Shown here piece by piece: positions 4,184-23,544 of a stretch of DNA of 35,697 bases; position 1 is the first letter of the stretch; the number at the start of each line of letters is the position of its first letter. The notes beneath the pieces are model-generated. The model was given only the letters and a program-made list of their open reading frames with translations. It had not been told where the DNA came from and did no database searches. This DNA comes from Candidatus Faecivivens stercorigallinarum (GTDB taxonomy: Bacteria; Bacillota; Clostridia; Oscillospirales; Ruminococcaceae): the NCBI GenBank assembly GCA_018715465.1, contig DVLN01000050.1:1-35697 (forward strand). The letters run 5' to 3'. Made by a program: the position numbers and the translations under genes.

Positions 4184-6070
4184 TTACAGTTCGCCGGCGA
4201 GAATTCTCTTTTTCGTCTCTTCCGCGTCGGCAACATACAGCCGGTACCATGTGATAAAAACGAGGATCGACCACAGTTTGCGGTAGTTGTCCGCTTTGCC
4301 GCTGCGGTGGTCTTCCAGCATCCTGAGAGCCGCCTGTTTGTCGATATATTCATCCGCCTTGGAATTGAGGATGATATCCCTTGCCCATTCATACAGCTCA
4401 TTTTTCAGCCATACCCGGACAGGAACCGGATATCCCAGCTTGGGACGCATGAAGGTTTCAGGGTTGACATAATCTTTAAAAGCGTACCGCAGCAGGTATT
4501 TGGTGGTACCCTCCCGCAGTTTTTCATCCACCGACAGGTTGGACGCAAACTTCCAGACCTCACGGTCAAGGAACGGCACCCTGACTTCCAGTGAATGCGC
4601 CATCGACAACCGGTCGCCCTTAACCAGAATATCGCCTCTGAGCCAGGTCATCAGGTCACAGTACTGCATCCTGATCATCGGGTGTTCCCCTTTGGTCTGG
4701 GCGAAGATATCACGGGTCAGTTCGGTATAGCTCTGAGAGGGGTTATAGGTCTTAAGGAACGGCTTTTTCTCCTTCTCATCAAACAGAAAAGCGTTGCCGA
4801 CATACCGGTCTTCCAGCCGGGTACCGGCACGATGGAAGAATGCCTTGCCCTTGACCCCATCCGGCCAGATCGCCGAGATGCCGCGGCAGGCAGCCTTGAA
4901 AATAGCCGGCGCATTCTCAAACCGCCCCGACAGCTGGGAATCTTTATAGAACTTGTATCCACCGAACAGCTCGTCCGAACCTTCGCCCGAAAGAATCGTC
5001 TTGACATACCGTGCAGCCTCTCCCGCAATCATATAGATTGCGACGGTTGACGGGTCAGCGACAGGGCTGTCCAGGCTCCAGACCACCCGTTCAAAGGCAT
5101 CCCGGAACTGTTCACAGTTGCCCTTGAGTTTGATATGTTCGACATTGAGGTGTTTTGCGATCTCGCTCGCGTCGTCGATCTCGGAATAGGAGGCGACGTC
5201 AAAGCCGACAGTCAACGCCTTGATACCGGGATTGATACGGCTGGAAATTGCGGTTATGATCGCAGAGTCGATGCCCGACGACAGGAAGGTACCGACCTCG
5301 ACGTCGGAGATCATATGATACTCGACCGACTCGGTCAGCACCTTGCGCAGCCGCTCTGCCTTGCTCTCAAAGCTCTCGCGGGTCGGAGTCTGGAAACGGT
5401 AATCCTCATACTGGACGATCTTTTCAATCCCGTCCTTGTTCAGCAGCATATAATGAGAAGCCTCCAGCACCGAAACCTTACCGCTGATGGTATGCGGCTC
5501 GGGGACATACTGGAAGGTAAAATAATGCTGCAGCATCTTCGGGTCAACGGTAAATCCGCCCATCTTTTCATCAAAGATAAACGCCTTCATCTCCGACGCA
5601 AAGATGACACCCGACTCGGTCTCACGATAGTACATCGGCTTGATACCAAACGGGTCACGGCCGACAAAACAGTTTTTCTGTTCGCCGTCATAAATCATAA
5701 TCGCGAACATACCCCGCAGCATTTTAATAAAGTCCGGGCCATGTTTCCGATAGAGCGCGACCAGTACCTCAATTTCCGAGTTGGTATGGAACTCCACACC
5801 CTCTTCCAGCAGCGGCTTACGCAGATCGCGATAGTTATAAATCTCTCCATTGAAAACGGCGGTAAACCGTCCGTCAGGAGAGGTATACGGCTGAGAGCCG
5901 GTGTCCAGGTCGATGATCGACAACCGTCTGAAAGCGACACAGAAATTATCCCTCACAATAAAATCGCTCTCATCCGGTCCGCGATGGCGGATGGTATGAG
6001 ACATCGTCGTCAGCAGTTTCTCATCATTCAGCGAAGCATCCCGGTTAAACATTCCGACAAATCCGCACAC
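4184..6070 (-). CDS. asnB: asparagine synthase (glutamine-hydrolysing), GTG start
   Basis: N-terminal (V/M)CGFVG class II glutaminase nucleophile Cys; RHRGPDES, FNGEIYNYRDLR, SGIDSAIITA PP-loop; GTG at 6068-6070 preceded by SD ggaaagggg. Confidence 0.95.
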   Translation of the reverse strand: MCGFVGMFNRDASLNDEKLLTTMSHTIRHRGPDESDFIVRDNFCVAFRRLSIIDLDTGSQPYTSPDGRFTAVFNGEIYNYRDLRKPLLEEGVEFHTNSEIEVLVALYRKHGPDFIKMLRGMFAIMIYDGEQKNCFVGRDPFGIKPMYYRETESGVIFASEMKAFIFDEKMGGFTVDPKMLQHYFTFQYVPEPHTISGKVSVLEASHYMLLNKDGIEKIVQYEDYRFQTPTRESFESKAERLRKVLTESVEYHMISDVEVGTFLSSGIDSAIITAISSRINPGIKALTVGFDVASYSEIDDASEIAKHLNVEHIKLKGNCEQFRDAFERVVWSLDSPVADPSTVAIYMIAGEAARYVKTILSGEGSDELFGGYKFYKDSQLSGRFENAPAIFKAACRGISAIWPDGVKGKAFFHRAGTRLEDRYVGNAFLFDEKEKKPFLKTYNPSQSYTELTRDIFAQTKGEHPMIRMQYCDLMTWLRGDILVKGDRLSMAHSLEVRVPFLDREVWKFASNLSVDEKLREGTTKYLLRYAFKDYVNPETFMRPKLGYPVPVRVWLKNELYEWARDIILNSKADEYIDKQAALRMLEDHRSGKADNYRKLWSILVFITWYRLYVADAEETKKRILAGEL

Positions 6071-6199
6071 AAGCAAAAACCCCTTTCCAGTTTCCCCGCC
6101 CAAACCGGCACCTTTCCCCCGCGCCGGCGGGCCATCATACAAATATCCTTCCCCGCACTGTAAACAGGGAAGGATATACGTCATCGTACTATATGCAGT

Positions 6200-10820: not shown

Positions 10821-11957
10821 TCAGCCGGTGATTCCCTTTTCGGCGAGGGTTGCCTGAATCGACGCACCGATGCGGGAACAGGTATCGGTCACCGCGAGCC
10901 TGCGGGCGTTTTCCGAAAAACTGCGCACCCGCTGTGGGCTGGCAACAAACTTTTCGACCTCGCCGATCAGCCAGTCGCGTTTATAATCCTTTTCCTCAAT
11001 GACCAGCGCGGCACCGGCATTCTGCAGCACCATACCATTGTGATACTGGTGATTTTCAGCGGCATACGGATACGGCACCAGTATCGACGGCGCACCAACC
11101 GTCTCCAGCTCACTGATGGTGATTGCCCCGGCGCGGGAGATGACCAGATCGGCGGCGGCAAGATAGAGATGCATCTGGTCGATAAACTCCATTGCATGGA
11201 TACGGGGATATTTTGATAAATCAAGTCCCCGTTCCTTGAGCATCTTGGGGAAACGTTCCCGGCCATTTTTGCCAAAGCCGTGGATGTGATTGATTTCACC
11301 CTTTTCGGCATGCCACGCCATCAGGTCGGCAGCCATCCGGTTGATCGCGGTCGCGCCAAGACTGCCGCCAACAGATACAATGGTAAAATGATCATCCAGT
11401 CCGAGCTTTGCCCGGGCCTGCTGCTTGTCGATGCCGATAAAACTGTGCCGGACAGGATTGCCGACCACCTCGAACCGTTTTGCATCCGGGATGCGCGCCC
11501 TTGCCTCCTCAAATGCAAGGAAGACCGTCTCAGCGCGGGGGGCAAGCATTTTGGTCGTCATACCGGGATAGGCGTTCTGCTCATGCAGAAAGACCGGTAT
11601 CCCCATCTGTTCCGCCTTGCGGATGATCGGGCCGGAAACATAGCCGCCGGTACCGATTGCAAAATCCGGCTGAAACTCCTTGATAATCTGTTCAGCGCGA
11701 TGCCCCGACCCCGCCAGCCAGACGGCAGCCTTGATATTGTGCGCGATATCCCACGGCAAAAAACTGCGGTAAAATCCGGCGACATGGATGTGGGCGACCG
11801 GATACCCCTGTTTGGGGATCATCGTGTCCTCCATATTGCCCGGAACCGCCGCAAACAAAAACTCCGCGCCAGGATAGATTTTCGCCAGTTCGCCTGCGAT
11901 GGCGACCGCCGGGTTGATATGCCCGCCGGTGCCGCCGCCCGCCAGAAGTATTCTCAT
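10821..11957 (-). CDS. murG: UDP-N-acetylglucosamine--N-acetylmuramyl-(pentapeptide) pyrophosphoryl-undecaprenol N-acetylglucosamine transferase
   Basis: MRILLAGGGTGGHINPAVAIA, GTGGYVSGP, HEQNAYPG, SRAGAITISEL; SD aaagga before ATG 11957. Confidence 0.97.
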   Translation of the reverse strand: MRILLAGGGTGGHINPAVAIAGELAKIYPGAEFLFAAVPGNMEDTMIPKQGYPVAHIHVAGFYRSFLPWDIAHNIKAAVWLAGSGHRAEQIIKEFQPDFAIGTGGYVSGPIIRKAEQMGIPVFLHEQNAYPGMTTKMLAPRAETVFLAFEEARARIPDAKRFEVVGNPVRHSFIGIDKQQARAKLGLDDHFTIVSVGGSLGATAINRMAADLMAWHAEKGEINHIHGFGKNGRERFPKMLKERGLDLSKYPRIHAMEFIDQMHLYLAAADLVISRAGAITISELETVGAPSILVPYPYAAENHQYHNGMVLQNAGAALVIEEKDYKRDWLIGEVEKFVASPQRVRSFSENARRLAVTDTCSRIGASIQATLAEKGITG

Positions 11958-11983
11958 CGCTAACATCCTTTCACCAGAAGCCG

Positions 11984-13366
11984 TTACAGCTCTCTGGAAC
12001 TGATAATCTTGATTTCAGGCTTCTCTTTATCGCCGTCGCCCGCCGCCGGGTCCTTTTTGCGGGAGATCGCAGGCCGGCAGGAACGCGAGATATTCAGCAC
12101 AACTCCGATCTGCGCCAGCTGCATCAGTGTCGCACTTCCGCCAGCCGAGAAGAAGGGCAGCGGGATACCGGTCGTCGGCATTGCGTTGGAGACAACCGCG
12201 ATATTGAGCAGTGCCTGGATGCCGAACTGGAAGACAACGCCGATAACGACCATCGAACTGAATTTATCCGGTGCCCGCATCGCAATGGAAAAACCGCTGG
12301 CGACAAACAGGATAAACAGCAGAATGATCGCCAGCGCACCCACCAGCCCCAGTTCTTCGCAGACAATCGCAAAGATAAAGTCGTTCTGCGGCTCCGAAAC
12401 CCACAAAAACTTCTGAGTTGAATTGCCCAGCCCGACTCCGAACAGGCCGCCGCTGCCGATTGCATAGATCGACTGAACGACCTGCCAGGTACTGTTGGAG
12501 ACATCGCTGAACGGGTCCAGCCAGGTGTCGATACGGGTACTGATATAGCTGAACCCCATCAATTGCAGGATCACCAGACCGATCAGGCCGACCGGAATCA
12601 GCCCCGCCAGATAATAGATCTTGGAACCGGCGACAAACATCATCACGCCACAAATCAGGATCATCAGCATAATACAGGACATATGCCGCTGCAGCCCGAT
12701 GACCAGCATAACCGGAAGCAGATAAAGAAAAAACGGCACTATACCCTTTTTAACAGTACCCATCTGCCGGTAGTTCATCGAAATCAGTGCCGCAAAAACA
12801 ACGATCAGACCAAATTTCATCAGCTCAGACGGCTGAAAAGTCCCCAGCGGCCCCAACTGAATCCACCGTCTGGCACCACGTCTGCCGGAATCTTCGAAAA
12901 ACAGTGCTGCTATACACAACACAAGACTAACTAAATAGACCAGCTTGAACAGCCGCAGGTACAGTTGGTAGGGAATATAGGACAGCAGATACATCGCAAC
13001 CAGTCCCATTCCGACAAACAGACACTGTTTTCTGACCAGCGTCAGGCCGGAATTTGTTTCGTTCAAGGAGGTTGCATAACTAGCAGAAAAGACCATAATT
13101 AGTCCTATCGTGACCAACGTAACGACCAGAAAGAAAAAGGAAATATCAATCCTTCCCAGTTTATTTTTCTTCACACGCGCCGGTTTATTGGCGATCTGAG
13201 AACGCATGGATCTACTGCTGCGGGCAGTCCGTCCCGTCGTCCGCCCGGCAGCGGATGCACGAGCAGAAGCCTGTCGAACAGCCGTATTTTTACGGGCCGC
13301 GGAATTCCGGCGGGCCCTGGTATTGCGGCCGGACATTGCGTCATGGCCGGTTCTGGTTGGGGTCAT
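11984..13366 (-). CDS. ftsW: FtsW/SpoVE-type SEDS glycosyltransferase with basic Arg/Ala/Ser-rich N-terminal extension
   Basis: VFSASYATS, RRWIQLGPLGTFQPSELMKFG, PTTGIPLPFFSAGGSATL SEDS signatures. Confidence 0.95.
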   Translation of the reverse strand: MTPTRTGHDAMSGRNTRARRNSAARKNTAVRQASARASAAGRTTGRTARSSRSMRSQIANKPARVKKNKLGRIDISFFFLVVTLVTIGLIMVFSASYATSLNETNSGLTLVRKQCLFVGMGLVAMYLLSYIPYQLYLRLFKLVYLVSLVLCIAALFFEDSGRRGARRWIQLGPLGTFQPSELMKFGLIVVFAALISMNYRQMGTVKKGIVPFFLYLLPVMLVIGLQRHMSCIMLMILICGVMMFVAGSKIYYLAGLIPVGLIGLVILQLMGFSYISTRIDTWLDPFSDVSNSTWQVVQSIYAIGSGGLFGVGLGNSTQKFLWVSEPQNDFIFAIVCEELGLVGALAIILLFILFVASGFSIAMRAPDKFSSMVVIGVVFQFGIQALLNIAVVSNAMPTTGIPLPFFSAGGSATLMQLAQIGVVLNISRSCRPAISRKKDPAAGDGDKEKPEIKIISSREL

Positions 13367-13470: not shown

Positions 13471-14466
13471 TTACAGATAAAAATATCCACCCATGACCGC
13501 CGCGATTGAGCCAGCCAGCGACAAAAGGGCATAGATACCCGTCACCATTTTTCTGCTCAGACCGCGCCCGATCAGCCAGTCACCCAGGCTCGGACTGCTG
13601 GTCTGGCGTCCGGCCGCCTGTAAGGCAACATTTATGATAGCATAGATTCCTTCAAAAAGAAAGGGGATCATCGCCGGAAGAATAAAAAGCGGTGCACCGC
13701 CTGCAATCGCGGCCATCACCGGCAGCACGCTTCCAGCCATCGCCCCGCCGCTTCCTTCCCGCATCCGTTCGGGAGGAAATACCGACAGCATCATTCCCAG
13801 CAGTGCCCCTGCTCCGGCAAATGCCAGCGAACAGGCCCCCATCCGGGAAAATACCGCAAACACTCCACCGCACCCAAGCGCACAGACAAGCGAAACACTT
13901 GCGCTCTGGCCGCTGACTGCCCGCATCCGATCGCCGCCCAGAGCCGCGCCAATCAGCATCACCAGCATAATTATCGTCCAGCCCTGCCCTGCATCCAGCT
14001 GACCACCCGCAAACGGGAGCAGCAGGATGCTGGATCGGTCACCCGACAGCCGCACCCCGACCAGGAACGCGAAACTGATGACAAACACCATCACCAGCCG
14101 CAGCAGCGGCGGCATCGTTCCCAGCCGTTTTGCCCTTCTCCAGTCATCCATCAGCCCGACCGTACCAATCAGTGCGGTACAGACTACCACCGCCAGCATC
14201 TTTCCGGCCTCCGCCCGGATGGAAAAAGCCTCATCCGTCTCCAGCAGCAAAACTGCCGTCAAAACCAGTATTCCGACAGGAATCATCGCAAGCAGAAAAA
14301 GCAGCCCGCCAAACTCCGGTACTGCCCGGATTCCCGGGCTAAATCCTTCTCCATGTTTTTCAAATTCTGTCCGCGACAGCCCTTTTTTGTCCAGCCATCC
14401 GGCCAGCGGTTTGCCCGCGACAGCCGTGATAATAAATGCGGCCACCGCCGCCGCCATTGCAGTCAA
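13471..14466 (-). CDS. divergent MraY-like membrane protein, probable catalytic-motif loss
   Basis: position between murF and ftsW; polytopic; AVPEFGG aligns to GTPTMGG, VGLMDDWRR to LGFLDDYIK; other MraY motifs absent (see findings). Confidence 0.75.
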   Translation of the reverse strand: MTAMAAAVAAFIITAVAGKPLAGWLDKKGLSRTEFEKHGEGFSPGIRAVPEFGGLLFLLAMIPVGILVLTAVLLLETDEAFSIRAEAGKMLAVVVCTALIGTVGLMDDWRRAKRLGTMPPLLRLVMVFVISFAFLVGVRLSGDRSSILLLPFAGGQLDAGQGWTIIMLVMLIGAALGGDRMRAVSGQSASVSLVCALGCGGVFAVFSRMGACSLAFAGAGALLGMMLSVFPPERMREGSGGAMAGSVLPVMAAIAGGAPLFILPAMIPFLFEGIYAIINVALQAAGRQTSSPSLGDWLIGRGLSRKMVTGIYALLSLAGSIAAVMGGYFYL

Positions 14467-14486: not shown

Positions 14487-15869
14487 TCAGCCGTTTGTCT
14501 CCGCCCGGCGGAGATCCCGGTCATGATAGACATACCGGATAACTGTTTCCAGCCTCGATTTTCTGCCGCCCTTGAACAGCAGCACATCCCCGTTGCGCCG
14601 GTCGGTGCGCAGATACTGCGCAATCTCCTCCGGCGACTGGAAAACCTGTACCCGGGTACGGGAATAAGGAGCGGCCCCTTCGGCCACCTCAGCGGCATGC
14701 TCTCCGCAGACCAGAATAATATCTGCGCCTGCCTGGGCGATCCTGCGCCCGGCTGCCCGATGGGCGGAAGCGGCGGTATTGCCGAGGTCTTCCATCTCGC
14801 CCAGAACCGCGATCTTGCGTTTCCCGTCAAATTTAGCGAAATAATCCGCCGCTTCCCGCACCGATTCCGGTGTCGAAGTCCAGCTGTCGTCGATGATTGT
14901 GACCCCCATCGAGGTCGTCATCAGACTAAGCCGCCCGGGCAGCGGGCGAAACCGTTCCAGCACCCGCTGGATGGTCGTCTCGGGTACCCCCATCAGCACT
15001 GCCGCTGCAAAGGCTGCCAACGCATTATAACAGTTTCCAATTCCTGGCATCTGCAGCCGGATACGGGTCGTTTTGCCGTAACAGCTGACATCCATCACGG
15101 TTGCATCCCGTTCGCTGCTGATGATTTTTCCATTGACATCGCATGGGGTCTCAATTCCATAGTACAGCACATCCCCTGAGACGTCCCCTGCCAGATTATA
15201 CAGCATTGGATCGTCGGCGCAGAGAATCACCGGATCATTGCTGCTCATCGCACGGGTCAGCGACATCCGTTCTTTCAAAATCGTCTCCTTGTTGCCGAAC
15301 GACCCGAGGTGCGCGCTGCCGATACCGGTTATGATTGCCGCTGACGGGCGGCAGATCTTTCCCAGCCGTTCAAAGCTGCCGGGCGTCGTGAATCCCATCT
15401 CGACCACTGCGCAGCGGTCATCGGCATCCAGTCCCAGCAGCGTCTCCGGCACGCCGAGATCGCCGGTCAGTTCCCAGCGGGTGCGGCTGGTTTTCTGTTC
15501 TTCCGACAGGATGCGGTAGAGCATCTCGCGAACAGTTGTTTTGCCGTCCGCACCGGCGATTGTGATAATACGGGTATGGAACTGACGGCGGTACCACGAC
15601 GCGATCCTGCAAAGGGTATCGTAAGGCGCTCCGTCCGAAACAGCGCAGGGAACGCCCAGTCCGTCGCATGGACGGTCGGAAATCACCGCAGTCGCTCCCT
15701 TCGCAACTGCTTCAGCAGCTGAATCTGGCATCAGCTCCAGATAGAGACAGCCAGGGCGCACCTCACCAAGGTCAGACGCAATCCAGCTGACCTCCATCTC
15801 TTTTTCCGGTTTTACGATCCAGCGGGCATCCGCTGCCTTTACAATCCAGTCAAGATTCATTCTTTGCAT
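14487..15869 (-). CDS. murF: UDP-N-acetylmuramoyl-tripeptide--D-alanyl-D-alanine ligase
   Basis: ITIAGADGKTTVREM (P-loop), GFTTPGSFERLGKICRPSAAIITGIGSAHLGSFG, IIDDSWTSTPESVREA. Confidence 0.92.
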   Translation of the reverse strand: MQRMNLDWIVKAADARWIVKPEKEMEVSWIASDLGEVRPGCLYLELMPDSAAEAVAKGATAVISDRPCDGLGVPCAVSDGAPYDTLCRIASWYRRQFHTRIITIAGADGKTTVREMLYRILSEEQKTSRTRWELTGDLGVPETLLGLDADDRCAVVEMGFTTPGSFERLGKICRPSAAIITGIGSAHLGSFGNKETILKERMSLTRAMSSNDPVILCADDPMLYNLAGDVSGDVLYYGIETPCDVNGKIISSERDATVMDVSCYGKTTRIRLQMPGIGNCYNALAAFAAAVLMGVPETTIQRVLERFRPLPGRLSLMTTSMGVTIIDDSWTSTPESVREAADYFAKFDGKRKIAVLGEMEDLGNTAASAHRAAGRRIAQAGADIILVCGEHAAEVAEGAAPYSRTRVQVFQSPEEIAQYLRTDRRNGDVLLFKGGRKSRLETVIRYVYHDRDLRRAETNG

Positions 15870-15921
15870 ATCCTTGCCCCTTTTCAGCAGTATCGCCGCA
15901 TTTTCCGTCAATCATGCGGTC

Positions 15922-17400
15922 TTATCGCGCTTCTGTTTCTGCCAGCGCTTCTGCCACAACCTCCCGTTCGTCAAAGTGGAATTTTTCATGTCCGATAATC
16001 TGATAGTCTTCATGCCCCTTACCGGCGAGGACGATGGTGTCTCCCGGCTGGGCGTTGGCGACCGCATAATAAATTGCTTCCCTCCGGTTGACAATCGTCA
16101 CATGAGGGGTATCGAACCCTTCCAGCCCCGGCAGGATCTCATCAATAATCGCCTGTGGGTCCTCAGTACGGGGATTATCCGATGTCACGATTACAAAATC
16201 CGCGTATTTTGCAGCAGCGGCCGCCATCAGTGGACGCTTGGTGCGGTCACGGTCACCGCCGCATCCGAACAGGCAGACCAGCCGTCCCCTGACCGTCTCT
16301 TTCAGCGATGAGAGAACATTTTCCAGCGGGTCAGGTGCATGGGCATAGTCGGTGATAACGGTAAAATCCCGTCCGGTCGGAATGATCTCGATTCTTCCCT
16401 TGACCCCGGTCACCTGACCAAGCGAACGGACGATCTGTTCGATCCCAAGCCCCAGCTGGAGGCAGGCGCCCGCCGCTGCCAGCGCGTTGCGGACCGAAAA
16501 CAGCCCCGGCATCGCAAATTTGATCGGATAATCTTTTCCTTTATATACCAGTATAAACTGTACGCTTTCCGGGTGGCAGACGATATCTTTTGCCCAAAGA
16601 TCCGCCTCTCTTTCCGCCGAAAAGGTCAGCACCGGGATTTCCCGGCCTGCAATCCCAGGCAGCTGTTCCAGCAATGTCCGCCCATGCGGGTCATCAATAC
16701 CGATGACCGCACTGTCACAGCGTGCAAACAGCTTTTTCTTGGCGGCAAAATAGCTTTCCATATCCCCGTGATAATCCAGATGTTCATGGGAAAGATTGGT
16801 AAACACAGCAGTCTGATACCAGCTGTCGCCAATCCGCTGCTGTTCCAGCGCATGGGAGGAAACCTCCATCACACAGTATCCGCACCCGGCATCCCGCATC
16901 TGTGCGTAGAGGGATTCCAGTTCCATCGCCTCAGGGGTGGTATTTTCCGCGTGAATGACCTTTTCGCCAATCTCATTCTGAATCGTACCGATCAGGCCGA
17001 CCATATTGCCGGCATCGGTCAGAATCCTTTTCATCAGATTGGTGACAGTCGTTTTTCCTTTGGTCCCGGTGACACCCGCCAGCCTAAATGCGCGGGCAGG
17101 GTGCCCAAAAAAGGCGGATGCCGCCCGACCGTAAAAATCATGGGTATCGCTGACGGTAATCTCCCGTTCCAGCCCCAGTTTACGCTCGGTAACAATGCAG
17201 GCTGCGCCTTTTTCCAGTGCGGCGGCCGCAAAGGTATGCCCGTCGACGTTGCCGCCTCGGATACAGACAAAGATACTACCCTTCACCGCCTGTCTCGAAT
17301 CGCAGGTGATCGCGGTAATTTCACAGTCAAATCCGGGCTTTTCCCCGAGTGACAGGCCATCCGAGCAATCTATTCCGTTCAAAATTTCTGAAAGCAGCAT
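15922..17400 (-). CDS. murE: UDP-N-acetylmuramoyl-L-alanyl-D-glutamate ligase, meso-DAP type
   Basis: GVTGTKGKTTVTNLM, TTPEAMEL, SHEHLDYHGDMESYFAAK, DNPRTEDP (DNPR meso-DAP specificity motif). Confidence 0.96.
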   Translation of the reverse strand: MLLSEILNGIDCSDGLSLGEKPGFDCEITAITCDSRQAVKGSIFVCIRGGNVDGHTFAAAALEKGAACIVTERKLGLEREITVSDTHDFYGRAASAFFGHPARAFRLAGVTGTKGKTTVTNLMKRILTDAGNMVGLIGTIQNEIGEKVIHAENTTPEAMELESLYAQMRDAGCGYCVMEVSSHALEQQRIGDSWYQTAVFTNLSHEHLDYHGDMESYFAAKKKLFARCDSAVIGIDDPHGRTLLEQLPGIAGREIPVLTFSAEREADLWAKDIVCHPESVQFILVYKGKDYPIKFAMPGLFSVRNALAAAGACLQLGLGIEQIVRSLGQVTGVKGRIEIIPTGRDFTVITDYAHAPDPLENVLSSLKETVRGRLVCLFGCGGDRDRTKRPLMAAAAAKYADFVIVTSDNPRTEDPQAIIDEILPGLEGFDTPHVTIVNRREAIYYAVANAQPGDTIVLAGKGHEDYQIIGHEKFHFDEREVVAEALAETEAR

Positions 17401-21556: not shown

Positions 21557-23059
21557 TCAACTAAATTCATCCGAAAACTCCTCTTCCGGCAACACATTTA
21601 CTGCGGCGCAGGCCTCTTCAAACGCCGACAGAAATGCATTTATATCTTCCGGCGAGAGGTTAGGTACCCGGATGCAGGTGTGTTTTTCCGACCGCAGCCA
21701 GACAATCAGGTCGGCGCACCGGCTTTTTCTCTGAAAGATACTGCGGGTCACGGTGATCTTAGCGACTTTATCGGCACGACAGACGACGGTAAACAGCCGG
21801 TAACCTCTGGCTGCGCGAAAGGTAAAGGTATTCTGCCGCTGTCCGACACCGTTGTGAAAAAAGGACCATAGCCTGACCGCCAGATGCCATCCGGCGGGCA
21901 GCACCATCATTCCCCCGACAAACACCACCAGTTCCCGGATACTCGGCAGCCACCGCCATGCCGCCCGCCATCCCAACAGCAAAAGCCCACACAGCAAAAT
22001 ATCCGGCCAGACTGTCCGCCACAGTGTCCGCAGCGGCGGGCGCCAGCGGTTGGGAGCGGGGCGCAGTTCGGGAAGAATCAGCGACAGGCTCCTGCGCAGA
22101 TCATCCCGACCGACCGCAGGAAGGAGAACCGACTGTTCATTCTTTTCCTTGCCGTACCCTGTGCAGCTGACCATTCCGGCATAATATCCGAAAATCTTTG
22201 TCAGAATACTCTGCCGCAGCTGCAAAAAATTGACCCTGCCCGCGGAAAGCAGATACTCTCTGACCGTCACAATCCCGCAGCGGATATACAACTCCCCGCC
22301 CCGTCTCACCGCCTGAAACCCAAGGTGACGGATCAGATTGAGGACAAAGTCGATCAGCCATCCTCCCAGCAGAACCCCCGCGATCACCGCCGCGACCGGC
22401 GGCAGCCAGAATGCCACCAATTGCATCAGCTGGGTCAATGAGGTAATCAGCCGGTCCTCGGCTTCCTGTCCCAGCAGCTTGCCGCTCTGGGAGATCAGTG
22501 TTGCTGCGAAGACCGCGCCGCCGATTGAGTCAGAGGTAATCAGCGACAGAATTCCAACATACCATCCTCTAGGCTCATATCTTCTGACCATGACCGGACC
22601 ACCGTCCAGCTGGCTGGAAAAGCGGCTGCACAGTTTTTCTGCATCCTCCCGGCGCAGCAACATACGAACATCCGGGGTATGTTTATTGCCGGCGTCGGTT
22701 TCAATCCGCACCCGCACCGCCCGCAGCGGCTTGAAATACCAGGTATGCTCGACCGATACCGATGAAATGTTGCACAACAGGATCTGTCTTTTTTTAGGCA
22801 GCAGCAGCCCTGAGCAGCTTTCCACCCGATCTTCTCCGACTGCCAATCCGGTAAACATCCACCGTACGACTCCTGCCGCCACAATTGCCAACAGCACCAA
22901 CACGTCCAGCCAGACGCCCCGCAGCCAGCTGTACGGGTCGCCGGTAAACAGCATAAGCGAACGGACCAGCGGAAGCAGCAGCAGCGCAATATACCGCTTA
23001 AAGCCGTCGATGATTGCAATTGGGTGCTGACGGGAATACTCTTTCCGTTCAGACAACAT
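21557..23059 (-). CDS. bacterial PH (bPH2) domain membrane protein, YdbT-like
   Basis: repeated TM pairs followed by bPH2-like segments (GLLLPKKRQILLCNISSVSVEHTW, GGELYIRCGIVTVREYLLSAGRVNFLQLRQSILTKIFG); start M at 23059 overlapping upstream gene. Confidence 0.75.
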   Translation of the reverse strand: MLSERKEYSRQHPIAIIDGFKRYIALLLLPLVRSLMLFTGDPYSWLRGVWLDVLVLLAIVAAGVVRWMFTGLAVGEDRVESCSGLLLPKKRQILLCNISSVSVEHTWYFKPLRAVRVRIETDAGNKHTPDVRMLLRREDAEKLCSRFSSQLDGGPVMVRRYEPRGWYVGILSLITSDSIGGAVFAATLISQSGKLLGQEAEDRLITSLTQLMQLVAFWLPPVAAVIAGVLLGGWLIDFVLNLIRHLGFQAVRRGGELYIRCGIVTVREYLLSAGRVNFLQLRQSILTKIFGYYAGMVSCTGYGKEKNEQSVLLPAVGRDDLRRSLSLILPELRPAPNRWRPPLRTLWRTVWPDILLCGLLLLGWRAAWRWLPSIRELVVFVGGMMVLPAGWHLAVRLWSFFHNGVGQRQNTFTFRAARGYRLFTVVCRADKVAKITVTRSIFQRKSRCADLIVWLRSEKHTCIRVPNLSPEDINAFLSAFEEACAAVNVLPEEEFSDEFS

Positions 23060-23525
23060 TCCCGGCATCATCCATCCCTTCTGTTTTTTCTGCATTTTCC
23101 GTATTCTCAGACGGGAGCAGCAATGCAAGCAGCTTTTCCGCGTCCTTTTTATCCAGCAGCGGCAGCAGCATACTTCCTCCCATCGCCGAAACCAGCAAGC
23201 TGGCAATCTCCGGCTTCGGAAAGGGGCATTTTACCACAGTCACAGCCATAATGGAAGAAAGACGGATCCGGCGATTGATCTGATACAGAATACCGCTCCG
23301 GTATTCAATATATTGATTAGTCAGCGTAAAATGGCAGCTCCGCCAGAAAAAACCGGCATATACGGCTCCTGCCGCTGCCGCCAGAGAACTTCCCGCCAGC
23401 AGCCAGCCGCGCAACACCGTAAACGGTTGGGTAAAAAAGAGTGTCAGCGCCACCGCTCCACACCATACCAGCACCACCGCCAACGAAACCATCAGCTGCA
23501 ACCAACGGGAAACTCCGCCCTCCAT
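23049..23525 (-). CDS. bPH2 domain membrane protein, YdbS-like
   Basis: two TM segments then YIEYRSGILYQINRRIRLSSIMAVTVVKCP; SD aggaggtg before ATG 23525. Confidence 0.75.
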   Translation of the reverse strand: MEGGVSRWLQLMVSLAVVLVWCGAVALTLFFTQPFTVLRGWLLAGSSLAAAAGAVYAGFFWRSCHFTLTNQYIEYRSGILYQINRRIRLSSIMAVTVVKCPFPKPEIASLLVSAMGGSMLLPLLDKKDAEKLLALLLPSENTENAEKTEGMDDAGNVV

Positions 23526-23544
23526 CCACGACACCTCCTGTAAT

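Follow-up and report, generated by a model that had tools for sequence, protein, structure and literature searches.

A catalytically degenerate MraY homologue in the dcw cluster of Candidatus Faecivivens stercorigallinarum and a second MraY outside the cluster

The enzyme MraY is essential, nearly universal and a target of antibiotics. Eight residues are highly conserved in the Bacillus subtilis protein (D98, D99, K116, N171, D174, D231, H289 and H290), and loop E carries an HHH motif (PMC5039524). The DDD motif of Aquifex MraY consists of D117, D118 and D265, the last coordinating Mg2+ (PMC6606608; for this role see also PMC5039524). MraY is dimeric, and C55-P binds at the dimer interface, at a distance from the catalytic site (PMC9046198). 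Our search of the open-access literature yielded no account of an MraY pseudoenzyme, nor of a second MraY matching the one reported below.

We analysed a 35,697-nucleotide stretch of DNA from Candidatus Faecivivens stercorigallinarum (the window), whose dcw cluster has a standard order: murE, murF, an MraY homologue, ftsW, murG, murA and, farther along, ftsZ (Table 1). The original prediction, made from the DNA letters, had placed an intact 331-aa frame at the mraY position. This was borne out: the ORF lies on the minus strand, starts with TTG and has murF upstream and ftsW downstream, and the plus-strand frame of the same interval is interrupted by stops. Resemblance to MraY along the protein, also claimed, was recovered over most of its length, with canonical dcw MraYs from the family matching at E values between ~1e-20 and 1e-23 and the MraY of 5JNQ as the sole PDB match (E 2.4e-6). 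The proposed profile alignment gave a split answer, detecting homology to PF00953 (20.7 bits, E 4e-4) at a score below the curated cut-off of 27 bits; no NCBIfam model matched the protein (TIGR00445 cut-off, 192 bits). AlphaFold2, given the window protein and two close relatives as alignment, returned a model too poor to judge whether the protein has the MraY fold with its ten transmembrane helices (pLDDT 42, pTM 0.33). Judged by its sequence matches, the protein is a true MraY homologue, though curated models barely detect it.

Table 1 Features of the dcw cluster in the window, with the segments of the MraY homologue discussed in the text
Feature	Position	Strand	Description
dcw-encoded MraY homologue, catalytically degenerate (pseudo-MraY)	13471..14466	-	331 aa
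murF, upstream neighbour	14487..15911	-	Mur ligase M and C domains
murE	15922..17400	-	Mur ligase domains; name taken from dcw order
ftsW, downstream neighbour	11984..13366	-	PF01098, 304 bits
murG	10821..11966	-	TIGR01133, 254.5 bits, above cut-off
Retained Asp-Asp pair D107 D108, loop B	14143..14148	-	Multiple alignments
Loop C, GGDRMRAVSGQ replacing NAVNLTDGxDGL	13906..13938	-	Asn and Asp residues lost
Loop D, VFPPERMREGSGGA replacing 14-residue canonical segment	13741..13782	-	Mg2+-coordinating Asp replaced by Ser
Loop E, SSPSLGDWLIGRGLSRKMV replacing HHH segment	13543..13599	-	Multiple alignments
GDRSSILLLPFAGGQLDAG, predicted extracytoplasmic TM4-TM5 segment	13987..14043	-	Well kept within genus

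Two other parts of the window drew our attention by eye. An ORF directly beside ftsZ (4184-6184, minus strand) resembles a glutamine-dependent asparagine synthase; enzymes of this type can amidate peptidoglycan diaminopimelate. Upstream of rsmH (21557-23534, minus strand), two adjacent membrane-type ORFs of 549 and 161 aa look like a pair of bacterial PH-domain proteins.

We used the eight B. subtilis residues (PMC5039524), mapped through multiple alignments, as a diagnostic set. Canonical dcw copies read DDKNDDHH at these positions (n = 28 aligned, with one exception, Asn at D231), whereas the window protein reads DDRDRSGD: six of the eight are lost and only the Asp-Asp pair is retained. The invariant Lys that follows the pair is Arg; N171 and D174 of loop C are Asp and Arg, with DRMRAVSGQ in place of LTDGxDGL; MGDTGS has become REGSGGA, so that of the DDD motif the first two Asp remain and the Mg2+ Asp is Ser; and in loop E the H289 and H290 positions of HHH are Gly-Asp, within SSPSLGDWL. 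The original prediction had described the pair as kept and the LTDGLDGL Asp residues, the MGDTGS Asp and the HHH motif as gone, all of which the multiple alignments reproduce. It had also reported the NAHP segment as lost, which is true of the Asn in this segment (NFHPAK), but the Pro is still there. No profile or multiple alignment places intact versions of the lost motifs in the protein. Because the residues for Mg2+ and substrate are missing, the dcw protein would not be expected to make lipid I by the known route. The same motifs are missing from the dcw copies of all 14 sampled genomes of the genus, each of which is degenerate: none keeps D174, D231, H289 or H290, while among 12 aligned copies the second Asp of the pair is present in every one and the first in 10.

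The window genome encodes one other PNPT, a protein of 315 aa (G000:C148:81-1025) that we call MraY2. Orthologues lie outside dcw in 14 of 14 genus genomes. The best NCBIfam model of MraY2 is TIGR00445, at 101.5 bits against a cut-off of 192, and its PDB matches are MraYs only. At the diagnostic positions all 33 copies read DDKNDDHD, with seven of the eight residues present and Asp at the eighth (H290). Across 26 aligned orthologues there is no variation in the Asp-Asp pair, the loop C Asn and Asp residues, MGDAGS or the first loop E His; this His is followed by Asp and a nearly invariant His, giving HDH rather than HHH. A profile of the family searched across the order scored MraY2s at 399-514 bits and other MraYs at no more than 115 bits among the matches listed. 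We found no conserved MraY2 neighbours that hint at a role, and the neighbours differ between genera. The trees of MraY2 and of the dcw genes agree only in part, which may, tentatively, reflect old coexistence with differential loss. Because no PNPT other than MraY2 has an intact residue set in genomes whose dcw copy is degenerate, we infer from sequence that it is the working lipid I synthase. One option in the original prediction, that another MraY elsewhere performs the step, thereby gains support from a protein with an MraY-like catalytic set throughout the genus.

To survey the family we used 149 genomes, 22 with MraY2 and 119 with a PNPT but without MraY2. Of the 22 with MraY2, 15 have a degenerate dcw copy and 2 have none; the remaining 5, G042 (described below) among them, carry a canonical or near-canonical one. 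A degenerate or absent dcw copy thus accompanies MraY2 in 17 of 22 genomes, compared with 1 of 119 genomes without it (Fisher p 1e-16, relatives not being independent). The single degenerate genome lacking MraY2 is G065; the other MraY2-negative genomes score as canonical, apart from three (G122, G096 and G124) with fragments or copies containing unread bases. Residues were read directly in a subset of these genomes, among them many of those with the lowest scores, and each complete copy gave DDKNDDHH. Two genomes of 95-99% completeness (G099 and G259) yielded no PNPT of any kind in searches with PF00953 and the MraY2 profile.

Every inspected dcw locus that retains the degenerate gene has it between murF and ftsW. 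In G063 and G074, murF adjoins ftsW with no MraY between them, and MraY2 is the only PNPT above the family cut-off. Candidate dcw regions of G237 and G279 contained no MraY and no mur or ftsW match, absence of the gene in genus g63 being read from G063 only. Three further genomes of genus g82 also have degenerate copies. On a tree of murE, murF, ftsW and murG from 44 genomes (a quick tree of dcw genes only, from hand-chosen genomes), the degenerate state needs seven changes, and a single clade for it is rejected (p-AU 0.00085). Of seven independent pairs on well-supported branches, a median of 6.5 showed the state and MraY2 presence in agreement.

Individual loci show further variation. The dcw MraY of G042 (L093, G042:C68:17000-24000) departs from the canonical form only in having MGNLGS for MGDTGS, a change of the Mg2+ Asp to Asn that is possibly a first step of inactivation; MraY2 is also present in this genome. 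The dcw MraY of G065 (L110, G065:C3:33000-41000) is partly degenerate, reading EDKTDEHE at the eight positions, and in this 99% complete genome we found neither MraY2 nor any other PNPT. The assembly may lack MraY2, or the copy may still be active with Glu for Asp. In G119 (L104, G119:C17:30500-38000), murE and murF share one open frame of ~986 aa, an apparent MurE-MurF fusion.

The conservation and dN/dS comparisons suggested with the original prediction show a gene that is maintained, with orthologues in all 14 genus genomes. None of the genus dcw copies has an internal stop, down to 26% identity to the window protein (the copy of G154 is cut by a contig end). Pairwise dN/dS of the dcw copy is 0.13-0.22 against three named relatives and 0.11-0.26 over other pairs of the genus, and nonsynonymous change is depleted (p 1e-16 or less). 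Loss of catalytic residues combined with purifying selection, a signature expected of a pseudoenzyme, was found in the window protein. For murE and murF the values are 0.04-0.09, so that selection on the dcw protein is weaker; values for ftsW and murG against UBA1448 are unreliable, their frames being broken in that assembly. At the UBA1448 loci (L057 and L115), each of ftsW and murG is broken up over several frames and there is an unread base within the MraY homologue, probably through assembly errors.

Weaker selection, at two to four times the murE and murF ratios, is what might be seen if the frame were kept merely for operon translation or for coupling of murF to ftsW, the protein itself being an idle, slowly eroding relic. 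Loss of the gene in two MraY2 lineages and the unvarying position of the copies that remain also speak for such an explanation. However, there is a strong deficit of amino-acid changes relative to synonymous ones, and copies only 26-35% identical to the window protein are still full length with common invariant residues. Moreover, the stop codon in the window lies ~100 bases before ftsW, making direct stop-start coupling unlikely. We therefore give the idle relic only a small share of the probability.

Canonical MraYs conserve their cytoplasmic loops far more strongly than the rest of the protein. This contrast is gone in the genus copies, in which loop D and the TM4-TM5 segment (presumably so placed, on established MraY topology) are best kept; such a pattern would be expected if the active site had been lost and the scaffold kept. 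We also considered the TM4-TM5 extracytoplasmic segment as a universally preserved feature and rejected it, since it holds in the genus and only partly in other lineages. The conservation of loop D, together with the largely kept Asp-Asp pair, could instead point to a working enzyme whose chemistry or substrate has changed, akin to the strongly altered enzyme of the original prediction. We consider this very unlikely, because most catalytic-site replacements vary even within the genus and are mostly non-catalytic residues: the Mg2+ Asp position is Ser, Lys, Arg or Asn, the loop C Asp is Arg, Gly, Ala or Ser, and the loop E His is Gly or Ala. Degenerate copies in other genera carry yet other residues. 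An assembly or sequencing artefact, or a recent pseudogene of one MAG, could be imagined for a fragmented draft (220 contigs, 90% complete) in a genus known from drafts, the named ones MAGs, but is refuted for practical purposes by stop-free orthologues under amino-acid constraint in three named MAG records (70-93% identity to the window protein) and 13 further genus genomes, MraY2 likewise being present in all 14.

The explanation that we consider highly probable on this comparative evidence is that the dcw mraY of the genus encodes a pseudoenzyme of MraY fold that has been retained in a non-catalytic role and that lipid I is made by MraY2. Replacement of the dcw MraY by MraY2 is well supported; for the dcw protein itself we infer a non-catalytic role, which could take the regulatory or scaffold form proposed in the original prediction. 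Under this model, MraY2, a divergent MraY at an unlinked locus, would supply lipid I, and in several MraY2-carrying lineages the dcw copy would have lost catalysis with selection retaining the protein. The likeliest function for such a protein would be as a structural MraY-type subunit, in a membrane assembly with MraY2 or with MurF, MurG or FtsW, or as a C55-P-binding partner. Since the dimer interface of MraY binds C55-P (PMC9046198), a dead protomer could still serve as a partner or lipid-binding subunit, or offer a docking site to membrane machinery encoded in dcw. G063 and G074 lack the gene, so the dcw protein is not indispensable everywhere. We put forward more tentatively, with somewhat less than even confidence, that the pseudoenzyme functions as a non-catalytic subunit in the assembly for lipid I and lipid II (perhaps as an MraY2 partner, a C55-P-binding protein or a docking protein for MurG or FtsW), and that such conversion took place about seven times in one family, in lineages where a second MraY can supply catalysis. 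Against our preferred explanation stand the sub-threshold TIGR00445 score and HDH motif of MraY2, the case of G065, the weaker selection than on murE and murF, and the two lineages without the gene.

A textbook gene at its textbook place thus appears catalytically dead, repeatedly. With the dcw copy apparently dead, annotation by position would assign lipid I synthesis, and the drug target, to the wrong gene. Each stage can be seen within the family, from a canonical copy beside MraY2 through an apparent first step (the MGNLGS of G042) and deep degeneration to clean absence, which makes it a natural experiment for asking whether MraY does structural work beyond its chemistry. If the subunit proposal is true, MraY would normally have a structural role separable from its chemistry.

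Compared with canonical MraY (PF00953 and TIGR00445; structures 4J72 and 5JNQ), the window protein shares the family, the murF-ftsW place, a similar length and the Asp-Asp pair, but it lacks six of the eight diagnostic residues, the Mg2+ Asp and the His motif among them, and falls below curated cut-offs. MraY2 is an MraY homologue of the same genome, but differs from the window protein in lying outside dcw, in its invariant catalytic set and HDH motif, and in forming a distinct family. The FtsW/FtsI-type synthases of the Clostridioides difficile dcw cluster are a further case of a wall gene in a Clostridia dcw cluster departing from its standard role, although they are sporulation-specialised synthases and not a degenerate MraY (PMC10693644). 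Planctopirus limnophila resembles the present genomes in having two mraY genes, mraY1 and mraY2, but both are dispensable there, and the portion of the report that we consulted describes no inactive copy (PMC10632474).
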